Below, piece after piece: positions 8,982-57,845 of a stretch of DNA of 64,000 nucleotides. The notes beneath the pieces were generated by a model that saw only the letters and a list, made by a program, of their open reading frames with translations, was not told the DNA's origin and did not search any database. The position numbers were made by a program, and so were the translations under genes. The first letter of the stretch is position 1. Each line of letters opens with the position of its first letter. Source of the stretch: Botryococcus braunii (taxonomy: Eukaryota > Chlorophyta > Trebouxiophyceae); contig KV908537.1 of the NCBI GenBank assembly GCA_002005505.1, positions 204,359 through 268,358 of the forward strand. The letters run 5' to 3'.

Positions 8982-9675
8982 TGTGAAAGGTTATGGGCAA
9001 TCGGCTTTCCCTGTACAAAGCAGACAGGTCGTCAATAGACGAAGTTACTCCAGCTACAGTCCGTACGACTGTCTGCTGAGTGCCACACACAACTGTTGGA
9101 CAAGACTAGCATCTGGTGATGCCCAGCATCTTTCACAACCAGTTCCGTTACATCATTATCTTGTACACAAGCACCGATCAAGCAATCACTAGATAAGGCT
9201 CTAGACGGCTACGTTCAAGTACATGCCTATACTCCCTGAAGTCACTGTCCCTTATCTGTTTGAGTGACTACAGGGTACACTAAGCTTGTTCACTCTCACA
9301 ATAGCAACAATGATACAACACACACTGCCGCACCGTACATGTACAAAGCAGACAGGTCGTCAATAGACGAAGTTACTCCAGCTACAGTCCGTACGACTGT
9401 CTGCTGAGTGCCACACACAACTGTTGGACAAGACTAGCATCTGGTGATGCCCAGCATCTTTCACAACCAGTTGGTATTCACTCCGGTGGGGCAGCCTTAA
9501 GAGTTCATCCGACAAACGTGTGATCTAGATAGGATTGTACCTTATGTTCGAAAACGTCCAGAATCTGCCGTGTCTCAAGGTACCTTATGTTCTCAATGGA
9601 CCCATATCCTAATAGTGCACACATGAAGATCACTTAAAGCACAAGGCATTCAATAATAATGTTCAGAACTCAACA
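8982..9675 (-). repeat. Family 1 3' LTR
   Basis: 694 bp, matching 17,610-18,303. It contains two identical 133-bp direct repeats at 9,012-9,144 and 9,340-9,472, separated by 195 nt. In the sense direction the second copy ends 30 nt before the LTR terminus. The terminus in sense reads GCCCATAACCTTTCACA, whose first ten bases repeat the sense sequence of the initiator-Met tRNA anticodon arm. Confidence 0.95.
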
Positions 9676-17609: not shown

Positions 17610-18303
17610 TGTGAAAGGTTATGGGCAATCGGCTTTCCCTGTACAAAGCAGACAGGTCGTCAATAGACGAAGTTACTCCAGCTACAGTCCGTACGACTGT
17701 CTGCTGAGTGCCACACACAACTGTTGGACAAGACTAGCATCTGGTGATGCCCAGCATCTTTCACAACCAGTTCCGTTACATCATTATCTTGTACACAAGC
17801 ACCGATCAAGCAATCACTAGATAAGGCTCTAGACGGCTACGTTCAAGTACATGCCTATACTCCCTGAAGTCACTGTCCCTTATCTGTTTGAGTGACTACA
17901 GGGTACACTAAGCTTGTTCACTCTCACAATAGCAACAATGATACAACACACACTGCCGCACCGTACATGTACAAAGCAGACAGGTCGTCAATAGACGAAG
18001 TTACTCCAGCTACAGTCCGTACGACTGTCTGCTGAGTGCCACACACAACTGTTGGACAAGACTAGCATCTGGTGATGCCCAGCATCTTTCACAACCAGTT
18101 GGTATTCACTCCGGTGGGGCAGCCTTAAGAGTTCATCCAACAAACGTGTGATCTAGATAGGATTGTACCTTATGTTCGAAAACGTCCAGAATCTGCCGTG
18201 TCTCAAGGTACCTTATGTTCTCAATGGACCCATATCCTAATAGTGCACACATGAAGATCACTTAAAGCACAAGGCATTCAATAATAATGTTCAGAACTCA
18301 ACA
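17610..18303 (-). repeat. Family 1 5' LTR
   Basis: 694 bp. Direct repeats lie at 17,640-17,772 and 17,968-18,100 as in the other LTR. A ten-base inverted repeat straddles the LTR/internal junction (17,600-17,609 against 17,617-17,626, 7-nt loop). Confidence 0.95.
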
Positions 18304-27590: not shown

Positions 27591-27980
27591 TTAAATTCCT
27601 CGCAGAACGTACAACCCATATCTTTCTACAATGCAGCACTCCCAACCCATGGGTCCCACTAGACTGCTGTAGGTCCCATTTTCATGTGGAACAAATTGGA
27701 TACCTTCCCTTACCCCAGCTGATACAGACAAGAGATTTGGGCTGGCCTGTGGAACACATTGTACATTATGGAGCCACGGTAATTGCCCTTCTGCGTTCAC
27801 CACACTCCCACTAGCAATGATGGAACCATGAGACTCTGATGTAGCCAACTGCAGTTGACGTGGTTCTGTGTACACCGTGGGGTTCTGCAATACACCAAAG
27901 TCATTAACCAGGTGCACAGTAGCACCAGAGTCCACAAGCCATTCCTCGCACGAGTACCGTATCCCAGCACTCTGTAACAC
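27591..27980 (-). pseudogene. Family 3 protease fragment
   Basis: Contains EEWLVDSGATVHLVNDFG, the aspartic protease active site, and the downstream conserved LHNVQCVP stretch of copia elements. The frame is closed by a stop just after LYVLRGI. Confidence 0.75.
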
Positions 27981-27988
27981 ATTAAACG

Positions 27989-28971: not shown

Positions 28972-30324
28972 TGTGAAAGGTTATGGGCAGAGAGAACACC
29001 TGTACGTCCGCAAAGGATTTGTCAATGCACTGGAGAGGTTTTGTAAGTCAGACCTCGACACACCCTTTGGCGCGACTGATACAGGTTCGACAAGAGCGCC
29101 TTCCGTTGCGTCAACCAAAAAGTACAACTGTCTCAAACACAAAGCAAATATGCAACAGCAAGCTCCAATTTGCATCAATCAGACAGGACTTCTAGTCCGT
29201 GGCTCAAAATTCGGCCAACCAAAGAATCGATTACATAGGATTACCCTAGTACCTAACTCATCTCACAATTTATTCGTTTAATAAATTTCGTCACGGACAA
29301 TTTGCTTTAGTGTTCCCTCTTTAGACACAGCAGTTTGCCGGACGTACGTCCGGCACGGCCTTGCCCCTTTGGGTCTGAACACCAGATTGAATTCACGATA
29401 CCATCATCAGGCTACAAATATTATTCCTATACACATAGAGGATGTATTCTAATACCTGTAAGTCCGCAAAGGATTTGTCAATGCACTGGAGAGGTTTCGT
29501 AAGTCAGACCTCGACACACCTATTGCCCCAAGCATTGCGATTTAGACAGAGAAATGTGCAACATTGCAAATACGGTGTAAATCAAATCGATCATTCTAGC
29601 CTATCCTCTGCCATAATGACAACGTACCCTTTGGCGAGACTGATACAGGTTCAATAGGAGCGCCTTCCGTTGCGGCAACCAAACAAGTACAACTGTCTCA
29701 AACATAAATCAAATATGCAACAGCAAGCTCCAATTTGCATCAATCAGACAGGACTTCCAGTCCGTGGCTCAAGATTCGGTTAACCAAAGAATGCCGAGGC
29801 TGTCGCCTCCAGCAATTAAATACCTGACCGTGTTTGGCGCCCAAAGAACTCGATAAAAGTCGAGTCCCTCAAGAACTCTCACTACAAAAGGTCCCTAATT
29901 GGTAATCCAATACATATGATGTGTCATAGACAGAATAACTAAAGGTCCCATATTATGCCTCTAAGCCAACACACTGATGTGGCCGCGTGAGAATTAGTTT
30001 GCCTGACCTCGAATACCTATTCGAGGTCCCAAAAACCAAATTCCACTGAGTGCCACAATGCTGCGTGAGTCAATGCAAAGTTCTCCTAACCTCTACGTGA
30101 AGTTACGTGAAGGAGACTGAAGTGTGTCATAGAATTATGTCGCTTCACAGCCAAGTTCCTAGGACTTAGCTGGAAGACATATGCAGTAGTTTACACCTAA
30201 GGCACAACAGTGTCGCGCCGTCCAGGTCAGCCCGGCATGCACGATTGTTTTCCCAAGGATGAGTCAGAAGAATACCTCTGAATAAGTCCAACAGTAATGT
30301 TCCCTAAATAGGTACCTGATCTAT
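28972..30324 (-). repeat. Family 3 LTR, minus orientation, nearly complete
   Basis: Starts TGTGAAAGG as the intact family 3 LTRs do in this orientation and follows them to ACCTGATCTA. The last bases to the LTR end are missing. Both internal repeat copies are present, and the upstream copy contains the intron-like segment (about 29,511-29,631), as in the young LTRs, so this structure is old in the family. A GC-rich palindrome lies at 29,337-29,354. Confidence 0.85.
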
Positions 30325-30494
30325 GTCTTCGAGACAGTTGTACTTGTTTGGTTGCCGCAACGGAAGGCGCTCCTGTCGAACCTGTATCAGTCGCGCTAAA
30401 GGGTGTGTCGAGGTCTGACTTACGAAACCTCTCCAGTGCATTGACAAATCCTTTGCGGACTTACAAGTGTTCTCTCCGCCCATAACCTTTCACA
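30325..30494 (+). repeat. Family 3 LTR 3' end, plus orientation
   Basis: 170 bp corresponding to the last part of the LTR, ending GCCCATAACCTTTCACA. It is fused head-on to the minus-strand LTR at 30,324. Confidence 0.85.
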
Positions 30495-31981
30495 GGGTAT
30501 GGGCCGACCTGCCCATCGAGCTACGCCGAAACCAAGGTCGCAGAGTGATACGAGGAGTCCGCCTTGAGTACCTGCTGCACGTCATATCCACAACGATTCG
30601 TATCTGCAAAGTGACCCAGACTTGCAGAAGAACATAACCTTTAACACAATGACTTGGTCTACAGAATCATCTCCAATGGACCAATTGAACCAACAGAATC
30701 CTGTAAGTCTGGATGGTCAATCCGCAGAACATGAGAAGATAGCGCTTCCAGTGGGTTCGATTTTGACAGCCTTGCTGCACGAGGACACAACAAAACCGTC
30801 AACAGCAAATTTCAAGGTTGCCCATCCCCTCCTATCAGATGGGTGGAATCTCAAAACCTAGCTTTATGATCTGACCACTGCAGCTATACATAAAGAGTGC
30901 ACTGAAGCTTTCCAAAAACCCCTGCCATTCACAAGAGCGAATGCCGCCGCCATGATGCTCATCACCAGCAGTGTTCCGGTGGAGTGGGGTCCTATGTTGG
31001 CAAAGAAGTCCTCTGCGTTTTGTACATAGCTACAATACAATTCACTGGAGGACACAACAAGTCTGTCAACCGCCAGTGGCTACATGCACTAAAAACAGAG
31101 CGCATGACCAGGGAGGAGACGTTCGAAACATTTGTAATGAAAAATTCATACTTTTTCAGAACCTCTTGGATAACGCACACTCCATTGACCCAGAGGATGT
31201 AACCAATGCTATTGTGGATTGTCTCCCCACTGAGCTATCATAGTTCAAAGGGGCACTTTACGGGCATTGCTGTGGGCGCTCCTCGGAAGACGTGGTAAAA
31301 ATCCTGCAGAGCCATGCCTATGGTCCTGGATTCAACAACCAGCTCCCTCGACCTCTCCCCAAGGCAGCGGCAGTCCTCCCAAAGTCTCAGGACCCTGATG
31401 CAGACCAGGAAAAGCAAGACGGAAAAAGGTCACGAAAAGTCAGGTGTTGGGAGTGTGGGAGCCGTGGTCATGGCAGCAAGGAGTGCACCAAATGGAAGAA
31501 GGGCTCTGGAGAGGAGCAAGCTGGCGACAGAAGTAAGCGTTCACTGCCAAGTGTTTCCTGTGCATCCAACAGTACCCATGTCCCATGTCCTCAAAACGCA
31601 GAAGCCGTTCCTATCTCACTGCCCAGTGTAACGTTTAATGTGTTACAGAGTGGTGGGATAGGGCACTCGTGCGAAGAATGGCTTGTGGACTCTGGTGCTA
31701 CTGTGCACCTGGTTAATGACTTTGGTGTATTGCAGAACCCCACGGTGTACACAGAACCACGTCAACTGCAGTTGGCTACATCAGAGTCTCATGGTTCCAT
31801 CATTGCTAGTGGGAGTGTGTGTCTGGTGAATGCAGAAGGGCAGTTGCTGTGGCTCCATAATGTACAATGTGTTCCACAGGCCAGCCAATCTCTTGTCTGT
31901 ATCAGCTGGGGTAAGGGATGGTATCCAATTTGTTCCACGTGAAAATGGGACCTACAGCAGTCTAGTGGGACCCATGGGTTG
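30495..31981 (+). pseudogene. Family 3 plus-strand copy: gag and protease (left piece)
   Basis: A primer binding site-like GGGTATGGGCC follows the LTR, then a 150-nt leader and gag ATG at 30,649. Gag is stopped at about 30,861 (KT-stop-LYD) and has further stops, then a clean frame 31,292-31,942 with a CWECGSRGHGSKEC knuckle (CX2CX4HX4C) and LVDSGATVHLVND protease motif. It is interrupted by copia family 2 at 31,981 and resumes at 39,127. Not functional. Confidence 0.85.
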
Positions 31982-32672
31982 TGAAATATTCTGGGCTTGG
32001 CGTATCCTGCATGGTGGCGGCACGGAGGGTGTTAGACGATGTCCTCCTACTTGTGCGTTGTTAAGTATGCACGGACATATACAAGTCAAGGACTGGTTAG
32101 CAACTGATTGATAGACACCCGGAGTGCCACTATAGTTCCAACCAAGTGTTACAATATCTCTCATCTCTCCTAACAAGGTGACGCAGTTCAAACACGCCTA
32201 ACCTGCTCTCACCCAGGTCGTGTTCATTACTTTGTCCGATGAGCTAAACTCAACTCTATATGTCTAACATGTTCTAACAATGTTCATCTGAGTGCTAAAT
32301 CCAGGAATACAATAAGGATTAAGTCACCTGCATGGTGGCGGCACGGAGGGTGTTAGACGATGTCCTCCTACTTGTGCGTTGTTAAGTAGGCACGGACATA
32401 TACAAGTCAAGGACTGGTTAGCAACTGATTGATAGACACCCGGAGTGCCACTATAGTTCCAACCAAGTGCCTTCCCTATCCGTGCTTGCCCCATATGCCT
32501 CCTTTCTACAAACGTGTCTGTAACTTGCGTTATGATAGTCTTCGTTCAAATGCATGTATTGCCTGGCAGAACTCAGGGTTCTGCCTCTCTTTCCTAATTG
32601 GTATTGTCTTCATACGGAGACTTGCCATTATTACTCCTCTGAGGGAAAGGCATAAAATTAATTAACACAACA
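31982..32672 (-). repeat. Family 2 3' LTR
   Basis: 691 bp. Direct repeats of 143 bp at 32,006-32,148 and 32,327-32,469, 178 nt apart; in sense the downstream copy ends 24 nt before the LTR end. A TATA-like CATATG lies about 25 nt upstream of the first copy in sense. Confidence 0.95.
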
Positions 32673-32684
32673 CTTCCCCTTGCC
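32673..32684 (-). other. Polypurine tract of family 2
   Basis: Sense GGCAAGGGGAAG, directly before the 3' LTR. Confidence 0.85.
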
Positions 32685-32690
32685 TTTACC

Positions 32691-35600: not shown

Positions 35601-38093
35601 CTCAGGACACAGAAACTCTGTAGACTGTGTTGAGGAAACGCTCATGCCAACCCGAGAGGCTCCCCTGAGGTGCTCCACGAAAACCACATCTCTGCTCTCC
35701 TTCCAGATACCCCCTCCCACATAGATCCGATAGGCTTTGGAGGAGGCTGAGTAACCAGTAAGCATCCCTGGCACAGTTTTAGGGGAAAACACAGAGCGCT
35801 GGACATCAGGAATGTGCACAAAGGCCAAGCAACCCCAGGTACGCAGTGGGGTTACATTTGGTTTGTAGCCAAAAAATAATTCTGATGGCGTGCGGTCCCT
35901 CCCGGTACTGGGACCCATGTTCAGTAGGGTGCATGCAGTTTCCAGGGCCTCCTTCCACAACGTTGGACTGGCAGCTGCAAAAGCCAGAAGAGTCCTGGTA
36001 CGTTCCTTGAGGGTGCGATTGGCTCTTTCAGCCGCTCCATTCTGTTGCGGGGTGTAAGGAGCTGAGGTCTCCAATTTAGTCCCCTGGGATGCACAAAATT
36101 CTTTGAACGTGGCATTCAGAAATTCAGTTCCACGGTCACACCGGACACACTTCACTTTGGTTTTCTTCTGGGTCTGCCAGTATAGAATGAGGTCCCTCAC
36201 AGCAGCACTGATGGCATCTTTGGACTTCACAGGCAGGACCGCCTTTAACTGAGATGACTCATCCAAAGCAGTCACCCAGTAACGTTCACCAGTTACTGCA
36301 GCAGGAAAAATGGGGCCCACAGTGTCAATATGTACTCTGTCAAGTGGTTCAACAGCTGGTCTACTGCTTATTCCAAATGGAGGCCGAGACGTCTTTCCCT
36401 CAATACATGCTTCACAGTAGACTGGACAATTGGAGCAGGGACATAGGGATGTATCAAGTCCCGAGACCAGGTCCTCATTGGTTAGGCGCTGCATCCATGT
36501 TTCACCTGGATGTCCCATTCTGCTATGCCAGAGGTATCGTCTGGCACAGTTGTGTGAGTTTTGGGTGGGGGTTTTGGACTTCACAGCAGCTGAAATTCTT
36601 CTGTGGTTAACACTGGGACTCAGAGCTACAACTTGATGAATATAAAATAGCCCTTTCTCTGCACTGATCCGAGACCTCCAGCTGTTTGGACCACAGACTT
36701 CAGTGAACGCTCCAACATCATCTGTGCGAAAGACTGCCCCATCCCGCAATGCTGCAGATACTGACAGTATGTTTGAGGTTGCAGAAGGAACACACTGAAC
36801 ATGATGTATCCACAGGGGAACTCCCACTCGACTGAGGATGCAGACAGAGCCTGATGCTACAATTCCTCCAGTGGCATCTGAAGTGGCCAGATGTAATGGG
36901 ATGGGTTTGGCATGCACAGTTGGATTATGTAGTAGGGTCACATCATTCACCAGATGTACAGATGCTCCACTGTCCACCAGCCAGGATTGCAGAGACGAAT
37001 TTCTGACAGGAGTCTTCAGGATGTTGAGGGAAATTATGTATGGCATACCTCCAGGTGGTGGAGGTGGGGGAGCTGGGGGTTGGAACCATGCCGGAAAGGC
37101 ATCCAGTCCAGGGTGCGCCAGCTGGGCTGCAGGAGGGTGTGGGCCACCCATATGTGGAGGTCCCTGTGGCCACATTCCCTGCAATTGTTGGACCGCTGCC
37201 ACTACGTTCCGTTGGGTCTCCTCGTCCCGCTTCCTCTTTCGACAGTCCCTCCAGTAATGCCCCTTCTTATTGCAGTAGTTGCAGATGCCCTTAGTCTCGG
37301 ACTTGGCCTCAGAGACAGTTGGTTGGGCCTGCTGATGGACTGCACTGGCAGCTGGTGGGGTATTGGCTCCACTGGAGCCTTGTCCAAGAGCCAAAACCCT
37401 TGGTTGGCGAGGAGCATATTCATCAAAACCCACTGCAGCTGCTGTGTTGCGCAGAAGTCCAGCCAGCTTCTCCAGGGGTTGTGCTGCAGCAGTTGTGATC
37501 ATTCCTGGCTCTTTAGCTGCATCAGGCAAGCCCTGCACAATCTGGGTTGCAACGTGTGCATCCAGTAGAGCATGGTTGTTCCTGTCAAGGCATGCCTTCA
37601 GGTTGATCATTCTGTTGACATATTGCGAAATCGTCTCGTCATGTTTCATTCCCTGGCTCATTTCTTGGAGCCAATCTGCATTGGCCTCGATATTATATCC
37701 ACCAATAAACTTTCTGCAGATGAACTCATATGCATCATAAGCAGAGGGCAGATTAGACAGAGGTCCCAGCCATTCCTCTGGGACTGACTCATAAATCAGT
37801 AACATTGCGGCTGCGTCATGTGCTGTACCAGGCATAGCCTCCAGGATGGCAGGCAAAGACCCTTTTGACTCATTTGCTGCCAAAAATGCATTCTTCCAAA
37901 CAATAATATTTGTCCCCCGTTCCTTCAGTTTTATGTGTACCTTGACATTTGTTGGGATAATCTTGGGCAGCTCATCTCCGCTGCCTCTTGAGGTGCTGGG
38001 AGTACACGGTTCTCTGATGGGTGTGGATGAGGCTGGTTCACTGCTTGACGTTGATGCTCCACTAGCTGATGATCCTTTCTTCTTGGAAGTCAT
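32691..38093 (-). CDS. Family 2 copia gag-pol polyprotein
   Basis: 1,800 residues in one frame, with the standard copia order. Gag occupies roughly 1-350, with the knuckle CNYCNKKGHYWRDC near 268-282. The protease motif WLVDSGASVHLVND is near 368. The integrase zinc domain (LWHSRMGHPG...CEACIEGK) is near 511-565, and the core has HIDTVGPI (about 584), CDRGTEF (about 650) and PQQNGAAERANRT (about 685). A hypervariable S/E/R/G-rich linker covers about 830-1,230. Reverse transcriptase follows with VIPVHWIFSVK, KARLVAQGCRQIPG and YVDDLLIV (about 1,468), then RNase H with VDADYGGD (about 1,648) and ADIFTKPL at the end. All catalytic residues I can check are present, so it could encode a working element. 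The ATG at 38,093 lies 337 nt from the LTR. Confidence 0.96.
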   Translation of the reverse strand: MTSKKKGSSASGASTSSSEPASSTPIREPCTPSTSRGSGDELPKIIPTNVKVHIKLKERGTNIIVWKNAFLAANESKGSLPAILEAMPGTAHDAAAMLLIYESVPEEWLGPLSNLPSAYDAYEFICRKFIGGYNIEANADWLQEMSQGMKHDETISQYVNRMINLKACLDRNNHALLDAHVATQIVQGLPDAAKEPGMITTAAAQPLEKLAGLLRNTAAAVGFDEYAPRQPRVLALGQGSSGANTPPAASAVHQQAQPTVSEAKSETKGICNYCNKKGHYWRDCRKRKRDEETQRNVVAAVQQLQGMWPQGPPHMGGPHPPAAQLAHPGLDAFPAWFQPPAPPPPPPGGMPYIISLNILKTPVRNSSLQSWLVDSGASVHLVNDVTLLHNPTVHAKPIPLHLATSDATGGIVASGSVCILSRVGVPLWIHHVQCVPSATSNILSVSAALRDGAVFRTDDVGAFTEVCGPNSWRSRISAEKGLFYIHQVVALSPSVNHRRISAAVKSKTPTQNSHNCARRYLWHSRMGHPGETWMQRLTNEDLVSGLDTSLCPCSNCPVYCEACIEGKTSRPPFGISSRPAVEPLDRVHIDTVGPIFPAAVTGERYWVTALDESSQLKAVLPVKSKDAISAAVRDLILYWQTQKKTKVKCVRCDRGTEFLNATFKEFCASQGTKLETSAPYTPQQNGAAERANRTLKERTRTLLAFAAASPTLWKEALETACTLLNMGPSTGRDRTPSELFFGYKPNVTPLRTWGCLAFVHIPDVQRSVFSPKTVPGMLTGYSASSKAYRIYVGGGIWKESRDVVFVEHLRGASRVGMSVSSTQSTEFLCPEPSASDTPPVFPGTSPGTTNISLETDLDDPHSEPEYLPASSNLPTQPVTGPPSEAEPEPESRRLCDPVEMDQTLEAVQDLARGVRQDSHLRPQMERAQEVLRPTRSDCRNHQLDGLTRAQRHEQRTAAKDLLLPQEKGESREREGLTECDSLSQGPGEVQLEGDSHEGHELHVSAVRGAATCKAANGPGELSSMGGSCSVTERNVRDVTMQSSSGNPSSQSTPGRDCGGSHRSEEASYAFSAPAKHDCERETGSASLTPCKGREEEVNQEHRHCGDRPNYKCSLRGTCAWESDVRDVRSLPTVTCSRSERHVDHINQGKYADTLPYPDVACERPEESELLQACQSVSEEVNRKSGQCEGIPNYKDCPRGTCAWEDDVRDEQSNLCKAKCESKRERAMREHSTSTGEPVMCNSASVSGRVVGSGQSERKSGNSEEKHTGVRFGKIHVPSNLREAQMSPQWEYWKAAMQEEQNSLDTHEVMEYVPRPREHKVIPVHWIFSVKMDAHGNVVRFKARLVAQGCRQIPGVDVMEVFAPTSSYGARRALLAVAAREGCEIHQVDVKTAFLNGELEEEVYVTQPPGFENGDKNIVCRLRKALYGLKQAPRAWHKTLNDKLEVMGYEVCKSDAGVYVRCSTDGGKSYVLIYVDDLLIVSKGMSEIERVKGLLKKEFTIHDLGEVKDFLGCQVMRDRDKGLITLSCIPKIDALVEKFGLDLESVGPDTPMTKDFVMSQRPAPRDGSDSIGAGSPLPPGHRYCELVGSLLYIANTTRPDIAQAVGVLSRYRISPTTAHWNEAIRVLKYLKGTRDLVLTLGGGEIELEGYVDADYGGDQDHRFSTTGFVLTVFGGAVVWGSKKQSAVATSTVEAEFMAASAVVKEANWLRGFLEEIGVLPWIVKIHCDNQGCINHLRNPVYSKHTKHIAISCHFAREAIAKGQVEFKYIQSARNVADIFTKPLVRQVFLGHRNSLGLAKFL

Positions 38094-38416
38094 AATTCCC
38101 CAGTTGTCTTATAACTCCAGTACTCGCAAGGTAGCAGCAAGATCTTACTTCTGAACCAGGTGGGTTGAGCTAACGGACAGCCAACGTGAAGGTGAAAGAT
38201 GTAGTCTTTGACGATAAAGGCTCTCTCGTCAGGATTGCGGTCTCCACGTTGTCCTCCTTCTCTGATTAGTTCGTTGTATGACGGAGGTCCTGATCTCAAG
38301 CGCGCTGGAACGTTGAGGTTGGTGGTCTTCCTGGCTGTTTGCTTTGTCCGCTTCTTCGCCATTCACAGTCTAGTGAGCTCCGATTTAGGCGCCACCCACT
38401 CTCAGCATCCGAGCCC

Positions 38417-38430
38417 GTGGGCCCATAACC
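38417..38430 (-). other. Primer binding site of family 2
   Basis: Sense GGTTATGGGCCCAC, directly after the 5' LTR, complementary to the initiator-Met tRNA anticodon-loop end. Confidence 0.88.
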
Positions 38431-39121
38431 TGAAATATTCTGGGCTTGGCGTATCCTGCATGGTGGCGGCACGGAGGGTGTTAGACGATGTCCTCCTACT
38501 TGTGCGTTGTTAAGTAGGCACGGACATATACAAGTCAAGGACTGGTTAGCAACTGATTGATAGACACCCGGAGTGCCACTATAGTTCCAACCAAGTGTTA
38601 CAATATCTCTCATCTCTCCTAACAAGGTGACGCAGTTCAAACACGCCTAACCTGCTCTCACCCAGGTCGTGTTCATTACTTTGTCCGATGAGCTAAACTC
38701 AACTCTATATGTCTAACATGTTCTAACAATGTTCATCTGAGTGCTAAATCCAGGAATACAATAAGGATTAAGTCACCTGCATGGTGGCGGCACGGAGGGT
38801 GTTAGACGATGTCCTCCTACTTGTGCGTTGTTAAGTAGGCACGGACATATACAAGTCAAGGACTGGTTAGCAACTGATTGATAGACACCCGGAGTGCCAC
38901 TATAGTTCCAACCAAGTGCCTTCCCTATCCGTGCTTGCCCCATATGCCTCCTTTCTACAAACGTGTCTGTAACTTGCGTTATGATAGTCTTCGTTCAAAT
39001 GCATGTATTGCCTGGCAGAACTCAGGGTTCTGCCTCTCTTTCCTAATTGGTATTGTCTTCATACGGAGACTTGCCATTATTACTCCTCTGAGGGAAAGGC
39101 ATAAAATTAATTAACACAACA
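38431..39121 (-). repeat. Family 2 5' LTR
   Basis: 691 bp, with internal repeats at 38,455-38,597 and 38,776-38,918. Confidence 0.95.
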
Positions 39122-39126
39122 GGTTG

Positions 39127-39704
39127 GGAGTGCAGCATTGTAGAAAGATATGGGTTGTATGTTCTGAGAGGAATTTATCCCACCAAATATCAGGTGGCTT
39201 GTCAAGTGTGTGTGAACCCTATGTCTGCATCATGCTGCGCACAAACCTGCACATAATTGCAAGTTGCGAAAACTTTGGCATGAGAGGTTAGGGCATCCTG
39301 GGAAGACAGCCACAGAGCGTTTGAGCAGGGAGGAATTGTGTACTGGGATACCTGTGTCCCTTCGTCCTTGTTCAAAGTGCGATACTCACTGTGACCCTTG
39401 TGTTCGGGGAAAGCAGTGTAAATCGTCTTTCAAGCTAAGTTCACATGAGCTGCCTCGAGTACTGCATCGAATACATGCGGATACGGTTGGTGCTATGTCA
39501 ACTCCTGGCGTTGAAGGGGAAAAGTTTTCTGTCACAGTAGTGGATGAGTTGTCTAATTTTGTTTCAGTACTACCAGTCACTAGCAAAGCTACCATTGCAT
39601 CTCATTTCACAGACACTATTACTTACTGGAGAGACAGACAGAGTCCAAGGTTAAGGTGGTTAGGACTGACAGGGACACAGAGTTCTTGAATAAAACGTTT
39701 CATG
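39127..39704 (+). pseudogene. Family 3 plus-strand copy: integrase start (right piece)
   Basis: Continues the copy broken at 31,981. The frame 39,264-39,689 encodes the integrase zinc domain (KLWHERLGHPGKTATERLS, then CSKCDTHCDPCVRGKQ) and the core as far as the second aspartate region. It is cut at 39,704 by a gypsy LTR. Confidence 0.8.
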
Positions 39705-40054
39705 TGTAGCGATCGGAAAAGATAGGCTCGAGGATCGAGGCCTACTATCGATCAGCGATCCGGAACAATCCGATAGAACCGAGGCTGTACATCGGTGGTC
39801 CGAACCGGGCGTGTGTCCCCAGGCAGGTCCCGATGGTCTCGAGGCTCTGGTGCCTCGGGATTGACAATCCCGAGGCATAGCGGAGCTCTCGAAGGGATTT
39901 CCGGAGGACTTGAGGCTGTGCCCTCGAGCTATATAAAGAGAAATCCCTAGGCGAAGGGTCATACCTTGCCGAACCTTTCATAATATCATTAAGAGAGTGA
40001 CTTCGATTGCTTATTGATTACTTTATTGTTTAATTGACTTCTGCTGGTGTTACA
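39705..40054 (+). repeat. Gypsy 1 5' LTR
   Basis: 350 bp from TGTAGCGATC to GGTGTTACA. It carries a TATA box at 39,930-39,937 (TATATAAA) and several GAGGC/CTCGAGG repeats upstream. It is followed by a primer binding site. Confidence 0.8.
39930..39937 (+). promoter_or_regulatory. TATA box in gypsy 1 LTR
   Basis: TATATAAA about 120 nt before the LTR end, in the correct orientation to drive the element. Confidence 0.6.
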
Positions 40055-40056
40055 GC

Positions 40057-40071
40057 TTGGTATTGGCGAGC
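40057..40071 (+). other. Gypsy 1 primer binding site
   Basis: TTGGTATTGGCGAGC, 2-3 nt after the LTR. Its complement ends in CCA, as expected for a tRNA 3' end; I cannot name the tRNA. Confidence 0.55.
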
Positions 40072-40116
40072 TAGGTGCTCGTGCGATTGTTGTTTAGTTT
40101 TCATTTGTAAGTCACA

Positions 40117-40957
40117 ATGGCTGAGTACGATGATATGCTAATGGGGGACGATGGGGGACTTGGAGCCGAAGCTGGGGGGCTTCGTGGGGCTCCGGAATTC
40201 CGCCAGGGAACCCCGTTGGTTATGACGTAAACGCCATGCTTGGGCAGGTGGTGGGCGTGATGGCCCAAGTTGTTCAATCAGCCAACAAGACAGATGAGAC
40301 CATGATGGCTCATATAGAGGCCGAAAGGGAGGCTCGGGAAGCCGAACGCCACGAGCGTGAGGCTCGCGAAGGGCCTCAAGGTAAGGCATTTTCACCCAAT
40401 GTCGGAAAAATCAAGGAGTTTTTGGGATTCTCCAGTGATATGTCTCCAAGGGAGTGGTTAAGCCACGCCAAGACGAGATTTTCGACTCCAACCTCGGGGG
40501 TTGAGGAAGACGATCAGGTAAGGCGGGCTGCAGCTAGCTTGGCTGGTCCGGCCTCCAGTGGAATAATTCCACCAAGGGTGGAGATGTGCTTACATGGGAG
40601 ATGCTTGAAATCTTCCTGTTCACCCATTACGGACGTATGGAGGATCCTGAGGTCCTTTTACAGCAGTTGGATAAGCTGACGCTTGCATCGACGCAAGGTA
40701 GCATTTCCACAAATGTTTCGAAATTTGTTACCATTTTGGCCAGGCTGGGGATGGACCGTCCCAATCGGGAGAATATCCATGCATTTTTGAAGGGGCTGCC
40801 TACCCACATTGGGGTTCAAATGCGCCTTAAATTTGCAGGGGAGCCTGACAAGCCGTTGCAGGCTTACATTGATGCATTGTGTCTTCTGCCTGATTATGAG
40901 GTGAAGCAGGCCCCAAGGGACAACGGTCAAGGGTCCAGTGGGATACGTGCAGGCTAG
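40117..40957 (+). pseudogene. Gypsy 1 gag, frameshifted
   Basis: ATG at 40,117 starts MAEYDDMLMGDD and stops at about 40,230. The coding sense continues in other frames at 40,236-40,560 (acidic/basic helix with repeated EAREAER, then FLGFSSDMSPREWL, the capsid start) and 40,586-40,957 (FLKGLPTHIGVQMRLKF). This is the capsid layout of Ty3/gypsy gag. At least two frameshifts kill it. Confidence 0.75.
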
Positions 40958-41008
40958 AGGGGCCACCGCGATGGCCATCATGGGGGTGGTCACACACGCA
41001 ATCACCCC

Positions 41009-41597
41009 GTGAAGAATGGAAGGGTCAATAAGTTGCTCTTCAAGCCGTCCCTTGAGGGGAAAGATAAGAGGAAGTTCAAACAGACACTTCCTCAATGCTG
41101 GGCATGTGGCAAATTTGGCCACAAGAGCAATAGCCGAGATTGTCCATCAAAAAAGAAATGGCCTTCTTCATCGGTAATTCCCCACATTACTCCCAGGCAT
41201 AGGAAAAGGAAACGTGTACCGTTTGATCCGTTGGCAACTGTTGAGGAACCGTTGCAATCTGCCATGAAGCCTGCCAGGTTGTATGCCTGCTCAGGGTTAG
41301 ACCCTGAGGTGTCAGAGCCCAAGGTGGGGCATCTGACAATGATGGTGCGGGCAGGGCTCAAATGGCGCCAACGGCAACTGAAGTGTCTGTTTGATGGAGG
41401 TGCCACATCATGTTTTATCTCGCGCCGTGTAGTCCAAGAGATGGGGCTCAAATCCCAGGAAATGGGGGAACGGCAGATTAAACTTCCTGATGGCAGCCTA
41501 ACCAGTAGTACAGAATTTGCTTCAGTTGCATTGCAGTTTAGTCAAGTTCCAACGTCGGTGGTGGTACCTTGCATTGTGGCTCCATTAGAGAGCTTAG
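41009..41597 (+). pseudogene. Gypsy 1 zinc knuckle and protease
   Basis: The frame contains CWACGKFGHKSNSRDC, with six rather than the usual four residues between histidine and last cysteine, and a protease motif FDGGATSCFI where DSGA or DTGA is expected. The frame is interrupted by a solo family 3 LTR at 41,598 and resumes at 43,034 with ILGDPWMQEHDVV. Confidence 0.75.
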
Positions 41598-42164
41598 TGT
41601 TGTAGGTAATGACCTAGATCAGGTAATTGCTTAGGGAGCATTACTGTTTATTGTAAGTAATGACCTAGATCAGGTAATTACTCAGGGAGCATTACTGTTG
41701 GACTTATTCAGAGGTATTCTTCTGACTCATCCTAGGCAAAACAGTCGTGCATGCCAGGCTGCCCTGGACGGCACAACACTGTTGGGCCTTAGGTGCAAAC
41801 TACTGCATACTTCTTCCAGCTAGTCCTAGGAACTTGGCTGTGAAGCGACATAATTCCTTGACAGACCTCAGTCTTCCTCACGTAACTTCACATAGAGGTT
41901 TGGACAACTTTGCATTGACTCACACAGCATCGTGGCACTCAGTGGAACTTGTTTTTGGGACCTCGAATACGTCTTCGAGGTCAGTCAAACTAATTCTTAG
42001 GCGGCCACATCAGTGTGTTTAATTAGGTACAGAAAATGGGACCTTTAGGTATTTTGTCTAGGACACATCATCCGTATTGGATTACCAATTAGGGACCTTT
42101 TGGAATGAGAAGCTTTCAGGGACTCGACTTTTATCGAGTCCCTTGGGCGCCAAACACGGTCAGG

Positions 42165-42171
42165 TATTTAA
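42165..42171 (+). promoter_or_regulatory. TATA-like box in family 3 LTR
   Basis: TATTTAA lies 24-30 nt before the start of the first internal repeat copy, a spacing that would put transcription initiation at or near that start. Confidence 0.5.
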
Positions 42172-42363
42172 CTGCTGGAGGCGACAGACTCGTCATTCGT
42201 TGGTTGGCCGAATCCTGTGCCACGGAATGGAAGTCCTGTCTGTTTGCTACAAGTTGAAGCTTGCTATTGCATATTTGATTTGTGTTTGAGACAGTCGCAC
42301 TTGCTTTTTGGTTGCCGCAAGGGAAGGCGCTCCTGTCGAACCTGTATCAGTCGCGCGCAAAGG

Positions 42364-42471
42364 GTACGTTGGCACTTTGACAGATGATAGAATAGCATGA
42401 TGTATTTGATAACCACTGCATTTGCAATGTTGCTCATTGCTCTGGCTAAATCGTAATGCTCGGGGCAATAG
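42364..42471 (+). other. Intron-like segment in the upstream LTR repeat
   Basis: 108 nt beginning GTACGT and ending CAATAG. It is present in the first repeat copy of the LTR and precisely absent from the second (42,766-43,002), where the flanks AAAGG and GTGTGTCGAGG are joined. The same presence/absence pattern is seen in the LTRs at 46,118-47,548 (46,675-46,782) and 28,972-30,324. Confidence 0.7.
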
Positions 42472-43033
42472 GTGTGTCGAGGTCTGACTGACGAAACCTC
42501 TACAAGTGCATTGACAAATCCTTTTGCGGACTTACAGGTATTGATGTAGTTGTGATTTAATGATATAATTCCTATTTGGTTAGATATTTCGTTGACTGTC
42601 GCAAAGCTGTGCTATTAGGTCGTCAAGGGAACGAGTGTGCCGGACTCAGGTCCGGCACAGAACATGTTTGAGACGATGCTATAAAACTAGCTGATGTGAG
42701 AAGTAATTTATGCGTATATGAGATTGTGCCAGTAGGGCAAGCAGTAATATTGTCCCATGTAATCGATTCGTTGGTTGGCCGAATCCTGTGCCACGGAATG
42801 GAAGTCCTGTCTGTTTGCTACAAGTTGAAGCTTGCTATTGCATATTTGATTTGTGTTTGAGACAGTCGCACTTGCTTTTTGGTTGCCGCAAGGGAAGGCG
42901 CTCCTGTCGAACCTGTATCAGTCGCGCGCAAAGGGTGTGTCGAGGTCTGACTGACGAAACCTCTACAAGTGCATTGACAAATCCTTTTGCGGACTTACAG
43001 GTGTTCTCTCTGCCCATAACCTTTCACACTTAG

Positions 43034-44439
43034 AGGTAATTTTGGGTGACCCCTGGATGCAAGAACATGACGTGGTGATGAGATATCCAGCTCGTACCCA
43101 GTGGTACTTACACCAGACACGTGTTCCACACCTCCTGTGGCAGTAATTAACGCGGTGCAGGCAAGAAGGGCAATTCGAAAAGGGGCCCTTGGGGTCTTGG
43201 TGCAGCCTGACCTCCTGTCCGCGTTTGGGGCACATGATGTAATGAAGATTGATGATCATAATGTTGCGAACGTGTTGAAGGGATTTTATGATGTTTTTCC
43301 TGATGAATTGCCTTCTCAATTGCCTCCTGATAGGGGAGTAACCCATGCGATTCCCATTCCAGATGGACAGGTTCCCCCTGTCAAGCCAATGTACAGCTTG
43401 TCTCCCGTGGAGCGGGAGGAAGTGACCAAAACATTGCAGGAGCTATTAGAAAAAGGGTTTATTGAACCCAGTTCTTCCAATTTTGCGAGTCCAATTCTGT
43501 TTGTGAGAAAGAAAGATGGGACTTTGAGGATGGTAATTGATTAAACAGATTGACTCTGAAAAATAAATTTCCACTTCCACGAATTGATGATTTGCTTGAT
43601 CAATTGTCTGGTGCTAACGTGTTTTCTTCACTTGATCTGCTTTCGGGGTACCATCAGATCAGGATCACAAGTGAAGATGTACCGAAGACTGCGTTTCGTT
43701 CTCTACAGGGCCTTTTCCAGTTTAAGGTACTGCCTTTTGGGTTGACTAATGCCCCAGCTACCTTCCAGGCTGTCATGAACAAAGTCCTCGCCCCTCTTCT
43801 TGGCAAGTGCGTGGTTGTCTATATGGACGACATTCTTGTCTTTAGTAAGAATCGAGAGGAACATGTCGATCATTTGCGTGCAGTTTTGGCCCTTTTGAGG
43901 GAACACCAACTGTTTTGCAAGTTGAAGAAGTGCTCTTTCTTCATGCACGAGGTCTCTTTTCTGGGACACCTGGTCGGTGGGGCAGGCGTGCGGGCGGACC
44001 CCGCGAAGGTTAAGGCAGTTATGGATTGGCCTTCTCCACGAAATGTTCATGATCTTCGTTGCTTCCTGGGATTAACTAACTATTTCAGGAAGTTCATCCA
44101 AGGTTACGCCTCTATGTCACGCTGTTTGACTAATCTGTTCAAAAAGGGCGTCGCCTGGCGTTGGTCTGAACGATGCGCAGCAAATTTCACGAGATTAAAA
44201 TCTGCGTTGGCATCCGCGTCTGTACTCCGCATCCCTAATTTAAATCGGCCCTTTGAGGTAATCTGCGACGCACCCGGTTTTGTCCTGGGCGCAGCTCTTC
44301 TTCAAGAAGGTGCCCCCGTCGCTTTTGAGTCACGTGATATGCCTCCTGCAGAGCAGAATTACCAGGATGGAGAGCAAGCACTCCTCGCTGTTGTGCATGC
44401 ACTCGCTCTTTGGAGGTGTTATCTAGAAGAAGTGCATTT
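43034..44439 (+). pseudogene. Gypsy 1 reverse transcriptase and RNase H, broken
   Basis: Frame 43,101-43,544 covers the RT start (PPVKPMYSLSPVEREEV, ASPILFVRKKDGTLRMVID) and ends in a stop where a short deletion removes the conserved YR.LN. Frame 43,550-44,439 continues NKFPLPRIDDLLDQL, the catalytic YMDDILVFS, and RNase H (CDAPGFVLGAALLQ, YQDGEQALLAVVHAL). It is cut at 44,439 by a family 3 LTR. Integrase and the 3' LTR are not in the window. Confidence 0.85.
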
Positions 44440-44820
44440 TGTGAAAGGTTATGGGCAGAGAGAACACCTGCAAGTCCGCAAAGGATTTGTCAATGCACTG
44501 TAAAGGTTTCGTAAGTCAGACCTCGACACACCCTTTGGCGCGACTGATACAGGTTCGACAGGAGCGCCTTCCGTTGCGGCAACCAAGAAGCAAGTACGAC
44601 TGTCTCAAAGACAAATAAAATATGCAAGAGCAAGCTTCAATTTGCTTCAAACAGACAGGACTTCCAGCCCGTGGCTCAGGACTTGGCCAACCAACGAATC
44701 GATTACATGGGACATCATTACTGCTTGCCCTACTGGCACAATCTCATATACGCATGAATTACTTCTCACATCAGCTGGTTTCATAGCATCGTCTCAGACA
44801 TGTTCTGTGCCGGACCTGAG
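44440..44820 (-). repeat. Family 3 LTR fragment, minus orientation
   Basis: 381 bp from TGTGAAAGG to GGACCTGAG, the terminal part of the LTR including most of the downstream repeat copy. It ends at the loop of the GTGCCGGAC palindrome and is fused there to a reverse transcriptase segment. Confidence 0.85.
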
Positions 44821-46117
44821 TACACGTGGGAGAGCCTTTGACATGATCAGCATGTCGTCTACAAAGAGAACCAAATACACAGGATCTTCCCCTGGAACAT
44901 TTGACACATAGATTCCTGCATCTGAAATGCATGCAGTAAATCCATGTTTAGCCAGTGTGGCATCAAGCGTATGATACCAGGCACGTGGAGCTTGTTTGAG
45001 GCCGTACAGAGCCTTACGCAAGCGACACACTTGGGGACCACCATTGTGAAATCCTGGAGGTTGAGTGACGTAAACCTCTTCCTCCAGATCCCCATTCAGA
45101 AAGGCCGTTTTTATATCGAGCTGATGAATTTCCATATCCTCAGCAGCTGCCTTACACAGAAGAACACGTCGAGCCCCAAAGCTACTGGTGGGTGCGAAGA
45201 CTTCGTCCACATCAATACCCTGAATTTGACGACATCCTTGTGCAACAAGACGAGCCTTGTACCTTATAACATTACCATGGGCATCGACTTTTACAGAATA
45301 GATCCAGTGAACTGGGATGACTTTCTTTCCTCTGGGTCTTTCAGTGTACTCAAAGCACTCATGAGCATCGAGAGAGTTCTTCTCCTCGATCATGGCTTGT
45401 TCCCAAAACACCCACTGATCAGACATTCGTGCCTCACGATAGTTACTTGGTACAGGAATCTTGCTAAATCTCACGCCTGCAGGACTGGCAAGGCAAGCAC
45501 GTAGAAAAGCAATACTGGCAGGTTCACTGGCATCCCCTCCTGAATCCGCGGTACGGAACACACATGAAGGCATCTCCCCACTGGGCTCTGCCCCATCTTG
45601 CTCATGCAAAATGTCTCTAACAATCCTGGCAGATCCTGCCCATGGATTATCTGAGCACTGCCTTGTGGCAGATGGTAGATTATCAAAGAATACAACCTTG
45701 CCTCTGGATCTTTTCTAACCCACTACTCTCTGTGCTTCCTGACTCCCACTCTTATCCTCTCTCACAGCAGCAGCTGCCATCTCTTCCTGTTCACATACCA
45801 TCTCAGAATGGTCCACTGCATCATGCACATTGCCAACTCGAAGTCGAGTTTCACGATCAGATTCACATTTTTTCTTAGCAAGCCTCCCCACAGCCTCATC
45901 ACGTACATGCATTGCAACAGCATTGTCATCGCCACACTGATCATCAGCACTTGAATCACCCTCCACCGCAGAATCAGTGTCAACTCCAGTACCCCTCCCA
46001 GTACATTCAGCTTCCCCTGCTTCCACTACGTCTCCTGCTTCCCCTGGTTCCCTGGATAAAGTATTCTCCGTTTCCTCTGTACTGGTGTCATCCTGTACAG
46101 TCACGGTTGTAGGAGCT
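44821..46117 (-). pseudogene. Family 3 RT/linker segment fused to an LTR
   Basis: 1,297 bp closely matching 48,671-49,970 of the longer copy. The frame 45,609-44,821 encodes VRFSKIPVPSNYREARMS, VIPVHWIYSVKVD, AQGCRQIQGIDVDEVF, and ends just after the LVLFVDDMLIMSKALPRVL active-site region. Frame 46,104-45,715 is the linker. RNase H is deleted. The right end is interrupted by the next family 3 LTR at 46,118. Confidence 0.85.
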
Positions 46118-47548
46118 TGTGAAAGGTTATGGGCAGAGAGAACACCTGTAAGTCCGCAAAAGGATTTGTCAATGCACTTGTAGAGGTTTCGTCAGTCAGA
46201 CCTCGACACACCCTTTGCGCGCGACTGATACAGGTTCGACAGGAGCGCCTTCCCTTGCGGCAACCAAAAAGCAAGTGCGACTGTCTCAAACACAAATCAA
46301 ATATGCAATAGCAAGCTTCAACTTGTAGCAAACAGACAGGACTTCCATTCCGTGGCACAGGATTCGGCCAACCAACGAATTGATTACATGGGACAATATT
46401 ACTGCTTGCCCTACTGGCACAATCTCATATACGCATAAATTACTTCTCACATCAGCTGGTTTTATAGCATCGTCTCAAACATGTTCTGTGCCGGACCTGA
46501 GTCCGGCACACTCGTTCCCTTGACGACCTAATAGTACAGCTTTGCGACAGTCAACGAAATATCTAACCAAATATGAATTATATCATTAAATCACAACTAC
46601 ATCAATACCTGTAAGTCCGCAAAAGGATTTGTCAATGCACTTGTAGAGGTTTCGTCAGTCAGACCTCGACACACCTATTGCCCCGAGCATTACGATTTAG
46701 CCAGAGCAATGAGCAACATTGCAAATGCAGTGGTTATCAAATACATCATGCTATTCTATCATCTGTCAAAGTGCCAACGTACCCTTTGCGCGCGACTGAT
46801 ACAGATTCGACAGGAGCGCCTTCCCTTGCGGCAACCAAAAAGCAAGTGCGACACTCTCAAACACAAATCAAATATGCAATAGCAAGCTTCAACTTGTAGC
46901 AAACAGACAGGACTTCCATTCCGTGGCACAGGATTCGGCCAACCAACGAATGACGAGTCTGTCGCCTCCAGCAGTTAAATACCTGACCGTGTTTGGCGCC
47001 CAAGGGACTCGATAAAAGTCGAGTCCCTGAAAGCTTCTCATTCCAAAAGGTCCCTAATTGGTAATCCAATACGGATGATGTGTCCTAGACAAAATACCTA
47101 AAGGTCCCATTTTCTGTACCTAATTAAACACACTGATGTGGCCGCCTAAGAATTAGTTTGACTGACCTCGAAGACGTATTCGAGGTCCCAAAAACAAGTT
47201 CCACTGAGTGCCACGATGCTGTGTGAGTCAATGCAAAGTTGTCCAAACCTCTATGTGAAGTTACGTGAGGAAGACTGAGGTCTGTCAAGGAATTATGTCG
47301 CTTCACAGCCAAGTTCCTAGGACTAGCTGGAAGAAGTATGCAGTAGTTTGCACCTAAGGCCCAACAGTGTTGTGCCGTCCAGGGCAGCCTGGCATGCACG
47401 ACTGTTTTGCCTAGGATGAGTCAGAAGAATACCTCTGAATAAGTCCAACAGTAATGCTCCCTGAGTAATTACCTGATCTAGGTCATTACTTACAACAAAC
47501 AGTAATGCTCCCTAAGTAATTACCTGATCTAGGTCATTACCTACAACA
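46118..47548 (-). repeat. Family 3 3' LTR of the long minus-strand copy
   Basis: 1,431 bp, the same length as the solo LTR and almost identical. Repeat copies map to 46,144-46,380 (intronless) and 46,607-46,951 (with the 108-nt segment at 46,675-46,782). Confidence 0.95.
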
Positions 47549-47560
47549 CTTCCCCTTGGA
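47549..47560 (-). other. Polypurine tract of family 3
   Basis: Sense TCCAAGGGGAAG directly before the LTR. Confidence 0.8.
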
Positions 47561-47734
47561 CGTTTCAGAGGTCCAGCTATTGTACTACTTCTCAGGCAAC
47601 GCCCACTGTAGTACATGCTTCTGGGTCAGGCGTGCTTCGGGGAGTTACTAGTGAAGGAGGTAGCTAATCTCCTCACCCTCCGCCTTTGCCCGTGGTCACT
47701 CGGTCGTGGTGAACACCAGCCGGAAAATAAGACG
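47561..47734 (-). other. Family 3 3' untranslated segment
   Basis: Between the polyprotein stop and the polypurine tract. No domain. Confidence 0.6.
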
Positions 47735-50604: not shown

Positions 50605-50609
50605 CAGAT

Positions 50610-51488
50610 TGTTGAATGAATTGGTCAATACTGTACTTAGTGACATCCCCTGTCACATGCCATCAACAGCAGTGTAAACTATAGCCGTTATAGCCCTTTA
50701 TGAACGGTATAGATCATACTCGTACCTCAATGACATAACACGTGACTTGTACGATATGCGTTCTCAATAGACATTACGTATGGTAGTACTTTAGGATCCC
50801 TGCAGTCCGAGCCATCCCTGGGCAGCCCAGGAACGGCTCGGTACTTGTCCGAAGCATGTTGGTATCCTTGACCAACCTCTACTGTTGGAGAGTGCTGTGT
50901 GCTGTTCCTGGAAACGTTGTAGCGTGGACGGTTTTTCCCACAGGCTACGAAGTGACGCTGCCGTCGTGCCATCACTGCAGGTGTGTTTAGGATTCTCAAA
51001 GCCGTTCCAGATATGATTGTGCTCAAACATTCAGACCAGTTAGATATTACTGCTGTGTGCATTGATGAGAGTGCATGACGAGAGCGCACTGAATGTTTGA
51101 CCTCATTGAGACTTATGTTGACGTCCACCGTTGTGGCGGTAAGATAGTTTCACTGTACAAACATCACAAAGAGACCTTGCTGAGTTACTGATGAACTATT
51201 ATTGTATTCTAGTGACGTAAAGTAGACATCGCAAGGCCTCTTTGGTGCTGAACTCTGCTATCAGGCAAGGCGTAGTGTTACGTGGTCTTTAGCAAGAGTG
51301 AGAGCAGTTAAGATCATTTGTAAGACTTGTCCGAAGCATGTTGGTATCCTTGACCAACCTCTACTGTTGGAGAGTGCTGTGTGCTGTTCCTGGAAACGTT
51401 GTAGCGTGGACGGTTTTTCCCACAGGCTACGAAGTGACGCTGCCGTCGTGCCATCACTGCAGGTGACGCCGCAAGCAGAAATGCTTGA
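50610..51488 (+). repeat. Family 4 5' LTR
   Basis: 879 bp. Direct repeats of 141 bp at 50,843-50,983 and 51,325-51,465, 341 nt apart; the second ends 23 nt before the LTR end. The first copy ends CAG|GTGTGT, the second CAG|GTGACG. Confidence 0.96.
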
Positions 51489-51502
51489 GGTTATGGGCCC
51501 AC
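51489..51502 (+). other. Primer binding site of family 4
   Basis: GGTTATGGGCCCAC, directly after the LTR. Same half tRNA-iMet type as families 1 and 2. Confidence 0.9.
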
Positions 51503-51796
51503 GCTTTCCAAGCTGAGCTTGCAGTGACGCACGACAGATTTCCAGGGAGAAAAGGGGTTTCGGACCCCGCTTCGAGACTGCGAGCTTCACTGACGAGTGA
51601 GGTCTGGCCGTTCAAACATATCGAGCTAGTCACGTAAAATTATTCCTTCTGTAGTGCTGGAAGGAATTGTTGTACAGTAGCAACTGGGCTGGGAAAGCAG
51701 AAGTACTTCTGGGACTGATCAACTCAGTGTCAGAGCTAGGAAGAAGTGCTTCCAGGGGAAGTCATTTAAGGCTTGGAGTGAAGAACTGGCTTGATC

Positions 51797-56966: not shown

Positions 56967-57845
56967 TGTTGAATGAATTGGTCAATACTGTACTTAGTGA
57001 CATCCCCTGTCACATGCCATCAACAGCAGTGTAAACTATAGCCGTTATAGCCCTTTATGAACGGTATAGATCATACTCGTACCTCAATGACATAACACGT
57101 GACTTGTACGATATGCGTTCTCAATAGACATTACGTATGGTAGTACTTTAGGATCCCTGCAGTCCGAGCCATCCCTGGGCAGCCCAGGAACGGCTCGGTA
57201 CTTGTCCGAAGCATGTTGGTATCCTTGACCAACCTCTACTGTTGGAGAGTGCTGTGTGCTGTTCCTGGAAACGTTGTAGCGTGGACGGTTTTTCCCACAG
57301 GCTACGAAGTGACGCTGCCGTCGTGCCATCACTGCAGGTGTGTTTAGGATTCTCAAAGCCGTTCCAGATATGATTGTGCTCAAACATTCAGACCAGTTAG
57401 ATATTACTGCTGTGTGCATTGATGAGAGTGCATGACGAGAGCGCACTGAATGTTTGACCTCATTGAGACTTATGTTGACGTCCACCGTTGTGGCGGTAAG
57501 ATAGTTTCACTGTACAAACATCACAAAGAGACCTTGCTGAGTTACTGATGAACTATTATTGTATTCTAGTGACGTAAAGTAGACATCGCAAGGCCTCTTT
57601 GGTGCTGAACTCTGCTATCAGGCAAGGCGTAGTGTTACGTGGTCTTTAGCAAGAGTGAGAGCAGTTAAGATCATTTGTAAGACTTGTCCGAAGCATGTTG
57701 GTATCCTTGACCAACCTCTACTGTTGGAGAGTGCTGTGTGCTGTTCCTGGAAACGTTGTAGCGTGGACGGTTTTTCCCACAGGCTACGAAGTGACGCTGC
57801 CGTCGTGCCATCACTGCAGGTGACGCCGCAAGCAGAAATGCTTGA
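56967..57845 (+). repeat. Family 4 3' LTR
   Basis: 879 bp. Internal repeats at 57,200-57,340 and 57,682-57,822. A 133-codon minus-strand frame recurs unchanged in both LTRs only because the LTRs are identical. Confidence 0.96.

Follow-up and report, generated by a model that had tools for sequence, protein, structure and literature searches.

Copia LTRs of Botryococcus braunii carry a genomic and an apparently spliced copy of the same leader, suggesting a replication cycle that depends on splicing

Ty1/Copia retrotransposons of the Drosophila copia type prime reverse transcription with a half-tRNA. Introns or splice sites in terminal repeats are known from other retroelements: Penelope-like elements keep an intron in an LTR-like repeat, and in HTLV-1 and foamy viruses the major splice donor is located in R and splicing removes part of the LTR-derived leader. 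We know of no spliced twin copy of the leader in Penelope-like elements. Functional introns are also described for the plant LTR elements Ogre and EVADE/BARE1 (PMC12786077). In the present study we analyzed a stretch of 64,000 nt from the chlorophyte Botryococcus braunii (assembly GCA_002005505.1, contig KV908537.1, positions 204,359 to 268,358; hereafter the window), in which one LTR family had been predicted to write its own spliced leader back into the LTR. The layout was found to be common to seven Copia families, most of them without an inner intron. We consider it likely that a Copia group in a chlorophyte follows an obligatory splicing cycle, in which an LTR intron conceals the poly(A) signal near the RNA 5' end while leaving it exposed near the 3' end, and each reverse transcription writes a spliced leader beside an unspliced archive copy.

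The LTRs are organized in the order of U3, R1 (the leader in genomic form), a spacer with a poly(A) signal, R2 (the leader in spliced form), and U5 (Table 1). In the solo family D LTR, exon 1 of R1 is identical to positions 42766-42934 of R2. The original prediction, that the upstream and downstream leader copies are identical except for 108 nt, proved correct to the base: the insert was present only in the upstream copy, R2 joined its flanks exactly, and the TATA-like box was found at the predicted distance upstream of R1. R1 ends with TTACAG/GTATTG, which has the sequence of a 5' splice site, and R2 ends with ACTTACAG/GTG, which has the sequence of a 3' splice site and lies 28 nt before the LTR end. 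When 42538-43000 is taken out, R1 joins U5 directly, so that R2 plus U5 would correspond to a transcript from 42195 minus both introns. The earlier account was incomplete in that it lacked the outer intron, which would remove the spacer and R2 from the RNA 5' end, and the TGTAA just before R2, which would account for contact between R2 and the 3' end of the RNA. As predicted, the same layout was found in the second family D LTR, where R1 and R2 differ by three mismatches, and in a diverged form in the older LTR, which by our reading extends over 28972-30327. Exon 1 of R1 and that of R2 in this older LTR were 92.8% identical to each other and 86.6% identical to the young family. The D LTR opens with a 51-nt tandem duplication (41600-41699 and 47447-47548 in the window), and the solo D LTR sits in a gypsy pol gene. 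U5 contains GCCCATAACC (43012-43021), the complement of the primer site, as does U5 of families A and F; U5 and the primer site can thus pair. The letters of GCCCATAACC presumably also occur in the anticodon arm of the initiator tRNA.

Table 1. Features of the paired-leader elements in the window (positions counted from the first letter of the window; introns, transcription start and poly(A) signal are predicted)
Feature	Position	Strand	Remarks
Family D LTR, solo	41598..43028	+	TSD CTTAG; host is a gypsy element
TATTTAA, TATA-like	42165..42171	+	24-30 nt before R1
R1 exon 1	42195..42363	+	first base A, putative transcription start
Inner intron (predicted)	42364..42471	+	GTACGT...CAATAG, 108 nt
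R1 exon 2	42472..42537	+	
Outer intron (predicted)	42538..43000	+	GTATTG...TTACAG, 463 nt; holds spacer, TGTAA, R2
TGTAA, chlorophyte-type poly(A) signal	42758..42762	+	start 8 nt before R2; signal described in PMC1868727
R2	42766..43000	+	exons 1 and 2 with an exact, splice-like junction
U5	43001..43028	+	
Second family D LTR (3' LTR of Copia element)	46118..47548	-	R1 exon 1 46783-46951, inner intron 46675-46782, exon 2 46609-46674, R2 46146-46380
Older family D LTR	28972..30327	-	~88% identical; intron-plus and spliced copies
Family A 5' LTR	17610..18303	-	R1 17967-18100, outer intron 17639-17966, R2 17639-17772, U5 17610-17638
Family A 3' LTR	8982..9675	-	R1 9339-9472, R2 9011-9144
Family B 5' LTR	38431..39121	-	R1 38777-38917, outer intron 38456-38776, R2 38456-38596, U5 38431-38455
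Family B 3' LTR	31982..32672	-	R1 32328-32468, R2 32007-32147 (one mismatch)
Family B Copia polyprotein, 1800 aa	32691..38093	-	integrase before RVT_2
Family C 5' LTR	50610..51488	+	R1 50843-50980, outer intron 50981-51462, R2 51325-51462, U5 51463-51488
Family C 3' LTR	56967..57845	+	R1 57200-57337, R2 57682-57819
Family C Copia polyprotein, 1716 aa	51791..56941	+	
Primer binding site GGTTATGGGCCCACG, family C	51489..51503	+	

Eight LTRs were given to a script that converts the sequence from R1 to the LTR end into R2 plus U5 by removing introns, only GT-AG introns being allowed. R2 plus U5 was the GT-AG splicing product in six of the eight LTRs (families A, F, B, C, E, and D), with nine introns in total, all of them GT-AG (9/9). 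Each of the six solved families had one outer intron removing the spacer, R2, and TGTAA, and inner introns were also lost in two of them, one in D and two in E. The two unsolved LTRs (family E', L028, and the D LTR at 46118-47548) are older or mutated and stopped at scattered mismatches, and their blocks show the same layout.

We read 25 family D LTRs with a complete U5-proximal copy, which were four in the window, nine at loci L001-L008, and 12 at loci L090-L101. The 20 genome loci were obtained by a search with R2-U5 (40 of 454 candidates scored, 42 places listed, 20 read besides two in the window), so that identity of R2 was selected for and the content of R1 was not. The 108-nt inner intron was present in all 19 U5-distal copies, counted in LTRs with at least two leaders, whereas all 25 U5-proximal copies lacked it, and its losses were exact at GT-AG, in agreement with the original prediction that the segment would be confined to the upstream copy and lost with splice-site precision. 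A single, intronless leader was found in five of the 25 LTRs, one D LTR in the window (44440-44821) was cut off upstream, and another (L090) contained three leaders. At L006/L007 (contig C684), two intronless D LTRs are located 1142 nt apart with a primer site and ~280 nt between them, which is too short for a Copia coding region.

In the genome, paired leaders were found in seven Copia families (A, B, C, D, E, E', and F), A and F being related. Besides D, the window contains three of them, A at 8982-18303, B at 31982-39121, and C at 50610-57845, which are Copia elements by their Pfam content: rve (582-682) precedes RVT_2 (1307-1551) in the B polyprotein, and the order is the same in C. LTR pairs with short target site duplications (by eye, CAACC for B, CAGAT for C, AGATG for A, and CTTAG for the solo D LTR), a primer site by the 5' LTR, and a purine tract before the 3' LTR were also present. 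B and C appear to be nested inside older D-like elements (25300-31981 and 39122-58700). Among families A to D, no blastn similarity was found between LTRs except for 18 nt at the A and D ends, while the RVT_2-bearing regions of these families were 62-75% identical, which indicates that the layout outlives the sequence. In families E (L022, L039) and E' (L028), R1 consists of three exons and two inner introns, and all exons are joined in R2; the inner introns were found only in R1 in all three LTRs of E and E', and the leaders of E and E' showed no blastn similarity to each other. The distance from the R2 end to the primer site was 25-29 nt, and ~10 nt in E and E'.

Protein searches gave named matches in the green algae Haematococcus, Pleodorina, Volvox, and Closterium, and also in land plants, a pseudoscorpion, and others; some of these matches, like the poly(A) signal described below, point to a chlorophyte host. 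No relatives were found in viral contigs by protein search or by alignment, nor in the genome contigs searched by alignment; a primer-pattern search of the viral contigs gave three matches with the same flanking sequence and no leader pair. The window also contains a gypsy element (59836-63992) with gag, protease, RT, RNase H, and an integrase zinc finger, and in a search with 501 residues its pol showed 91% identity to a protein encoded on a JGI contig of 40 kb (P0123), which indicates that a near relative has already been sequenced.

The primer site GGTTATGGGCCCACG directly follows the 5' LTR in families A, B, and C, and we take it to be complementary to the inner part (anticodon arm) of the initiator Met tRNA. 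The 176-Mb assembly contains 1221 occurrences of this site and none of the reversed control. Of the first 71 sites listed, 70 were read (one at a contig start was skipped), and at least two leader copies, R1 and R2, were present upstream of the primer site in 64 of these 70. The sites read are all located on the first eleven contigs and do not represent a random selection. Thus, the conventional U3-R-U5 arrangement with one R was replaced by at least two leaders at 64/70 sites, R being defined here by the putative start and end of the RNA. Among the six sites without a pair, three in family F (L036, L042, L058) and one in B (L040) had one leader joined directly to U5, one (L048) belonged to a B-like family with a single leader, and one (L065) carried a gypsy-type insertion near the R2 end. 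We considered that L065 might contain a foreign exon spliced onto U5 and rejected this, since by eye it is an antisense gypsy-type LTR inside the B LTR near the R2 end. Both LTRs were single-leader in three of the three F elements tested, the partner LTR being picked by distance, and these elements may have arisen by transfer onto R1 or descend from a parent that already had this form. In L040 only the 5' LTR was single, and the 3' LTR (L079), which has the same target duplication, was full. Some single-R LTRs thus reflect recombination after insertion or assembly collapse, and we rejected such LTRs as general proof of transfer onto R1. Three leaders in the order of R-spacer-R-spacer-R-U5 were found in two LTRs (L090 of D, L070 of F); the probable cause is either unequal recombination or a jump to the wrong place.

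In all seven families (one LTR each), R2 is preceded by a TGTAA, which starts 4-8 nt upstream of it and is not found before R1. According to PMC1868727, UGUAA is the poly(A) signal of chlorophytes, absent in Pyramimonas, with a peak ~17 nt before cleavage in most of them; with TGTAA at this position, the RNA would end ~10 nt inside R2. We consider it very likely, from the genome anatomy, that R1 contains the transcription start, that the leader undergoes splicing, and that the RNA terminates just inside R2 of the 3' LTR, with R2 and U5 being rewritten in each cycle by strong-stop DNA made from the spliced leader. The cycle in the original prediction is thereby supported, with the start, the splicing, and the poly(A) site as predicted features. 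RNA polymerase II would initiate at the first base of R1, an A. From the 5' LTR part of the transcript, splicing would remove any inner introns of R1 (none, one, or two by family) together with the outer intron from the R1 end to the R2 end, by which the poly(A) signal and R2 would be lost from the RNA 5' end and a leader of R-U5-PBS would be left. In the 3' LTR, the RNA would be cut ~10 nt inside R2, just after TGTAA; since the outer 3' splice site would then be absent there, R1 and the spacer would stay in the RNA. Minus-strand strong-stop DNA, primed by half of the initiator tRNA, would be extended along the spliced leader as far as the cap and would often gain one non-templated base. It would then jump to the short R2 start at the RNA 3' end and continue through the spacer, R1, and U3, so that the new LTR would retain the introns in R1 and gain a freshly spliced R2 and U5. 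Since splicing at the 5' end would remove TGTAA and the cut at the 3' end would remove the outer 3' splice site, one arrangement could make identical LTRs behave differently.

Two difficulties accompany this cycle. The inner introns, spliced at the RNA 5' end, must stay unspliced in the 3' LTR part of the same RNA. In addition, the match available in R1 of the 3' part of the RNA is far longer than that at the R2 start (~10 nt), yet most LTRs show transfer at R2. The latter would be eased if the leader is spliced but the RNA 3' end lies beyond R2, in which case R2 would be a long conventional R of 140-235 nt and the position of TGTAA a coincidence. The poly(A) site is indeed a predicted one, but the 4-8 nt spacing in 7/7 families, compared with the UGUAA peak ~17 nt before cleavage given in PMC1868727, argues against this explanation, and an RNA that contained the whole of R2 would retain the outer 3' splice site at its 3' end as well. 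We thus regard it as unlikely.

The bases around R are consistent with an RNA 5' end copied to its cap. R starts with A in all seven families, with a pyrimidine before it in six, and AT-rich boxes were seen by eye ~25-32 nt upstream of R in several families. The base before R1 is C in all A, B, and D copies that are readable as following U3, the exception being the middle leader of L090. The base before R2 in family A, tallied after three rearranged copies were dropped, is the most variable interior column among 23 copies (G16 T5 C1 A1), and the five copies with T have no other variant in common. In family B it is C10 G5 T1 in 16 of the 17 aligned copies and partly tracks the subfamily, and in D it is G, A, or absent; no variation was found in C (G in 13/13) or in the seven F copies read (always G). 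This variable position may correspond to a non-templated base that was added last to strong-stop DNA and became fixed when the DNA jumped. In one element (L060/L083, the two LTRs of which are 688/688 identical), both LTRs carry an R2 that is extended upstream by 12 nt present at the U3 end, and TGTAA is lost there. Five of the added nucleotides (GAGAG) are also found in the spacer, so that no fewer than seven must originate upstream of the position where R normally starts, and the presence of the extension in both LTRs indicates that it was formed before integration. It is as would be expected from a transcript with an upstream start; recombination in the parent is possible.

R1 and R2 vary together. 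They were identical within the LTR in 16/17 copies of B, 13/13 of C, 18/25 of A (L056 left out), and 2/8 of F, and a minority state was shared by R1 and R2 of the same LTRs in 5/6 variable columns of B, 2/2 of C, 15/32 of A, and 3/15 of F. A discordant copy was present in 18/32 variable columns of A, where two rearranged copies (L034, L059) give 13/19 such cells, and in 12/15 of F, where one old copy (L009) gives 8/15. When R2 was shuffled among copies, the observed agreement was reached 0/2000 times in A, 0 in B, 1 in C, and 0 then 5 in F; the copies are related, so that these counts are not probabilities. In the L056 element, a 41-nt deletion is present in all four leader copies, i.e., R1 and R2 of both LTRs, and the partner LTR is 569/569 identical. 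In the family A element of the window, the 5' LTR (17610-18303) has one mismatch between R1 and R2, at the last base of R1: R1 ends with T and R2 with G, in both LTRs. The other A copies with the R1 end printed have G in both. The simplest reading of this difference would be one cycle of lag.

Concordance of R1 and R2 by itself could be gene conversion. R2 might be a spliced leader cDNA that was inserted once per lineage and has since been kept like R1 by chromosomal gene conversion; R1 and R2 are close direct repeats, and the single-R and triple-R LTRs (the 5' LTR of L040, L070, L090) show that leaders probably recombine. Conversion, however, would transfer the inner introns, whereas these are confined to the distal copies in D (19/19 against 0/25) and to R1 in the three LTRs of E and E'. 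It also leaves the variation at the base before R2 unexplained, and the upstream-extended R2 in both LTRs of L060/L083 fits reverse transcription better, although it may also have come from conversion in the parent. We hence consider maintenance by conversion quite unlikely. An ordinary tandem duplication in the LTR, followed by a 108-nt deletion or insertion that is intron-like by chance, is highly implausible: internal repeats are common in LTRs, and the D LTR opens with one, but the same layout recurs in seven families, several with unrelated LTR sequences, the boundaries are GT-AG in 9/9 introns, R2 ends 25-29 nt (~10 nt in E and E') before the primer site, and TGTAA lies at the R2 start in 7/7 families.

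Passage through spliced RNA normally erases introns; these elements would keep them by copying their two ends from differently processed parts of one RNA. If the spliced-leader cycle is true, an element that passes through RNA retains its introns indefinitely, with the start site and the splice choice of the last transcript being recorded in its LTR. As R2 would be a DNA copy of the 5' end of that transcript, start sites, base additions at the cap end, and splice choices would be readable from the genome sequence alone, so that ordinary long-read RNA data would suffice to test the mechanism. The cycle would also provide a simple solution to the long-standing question of how the poly(A) signal is used only at the 3' one of two identical LTRs.

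The elements resemble Ty1/Copia in having LTRs, target duplications of 5 bp, a gag-pol in which integrase precedes RVT_2, a primer site that adjoins the 5' LTR and complements the inner part of the initiator tRNA, and a purine tract before the 3' LTR. Unlike in Ty1/Copia, two leader copies replace the one R, the downstream copy being the spliced form of the upstream one, and the transcription start and the poly(A) site would be in different leader copies. Introns are kept in a repeat that is also the promoter region, as in Penelope-like elements, but the latter have a Penelope RT with or without GIY-YIG and no integrase, whereas RVT_2 and rve were found here, which places the present elements outside that group. 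A 5' splice site in R, here a predicted one, is shared with HTLV-1 and foamy viruses; their genomic RNA is unspliced, whereas splicing at the 5' end would be required of the RNA reverse-transcribed here. Ogre and EVADE/BARE1 are likewise LTR retrotransposons with introns, those here being predicted, but their introns serve subgenomic RNAs from the coding part (PMC12786077). The introns of these plant elements are not known to lie in the LTR leader or to be written back. No element with write-back of a spliced leader was found in the accessible sections of the open-licence PMC literature. By their sequence organization, the present elements may best be described as a variation on Copia, in which the paired layout of a genomic and a spliced leader appears to be new.
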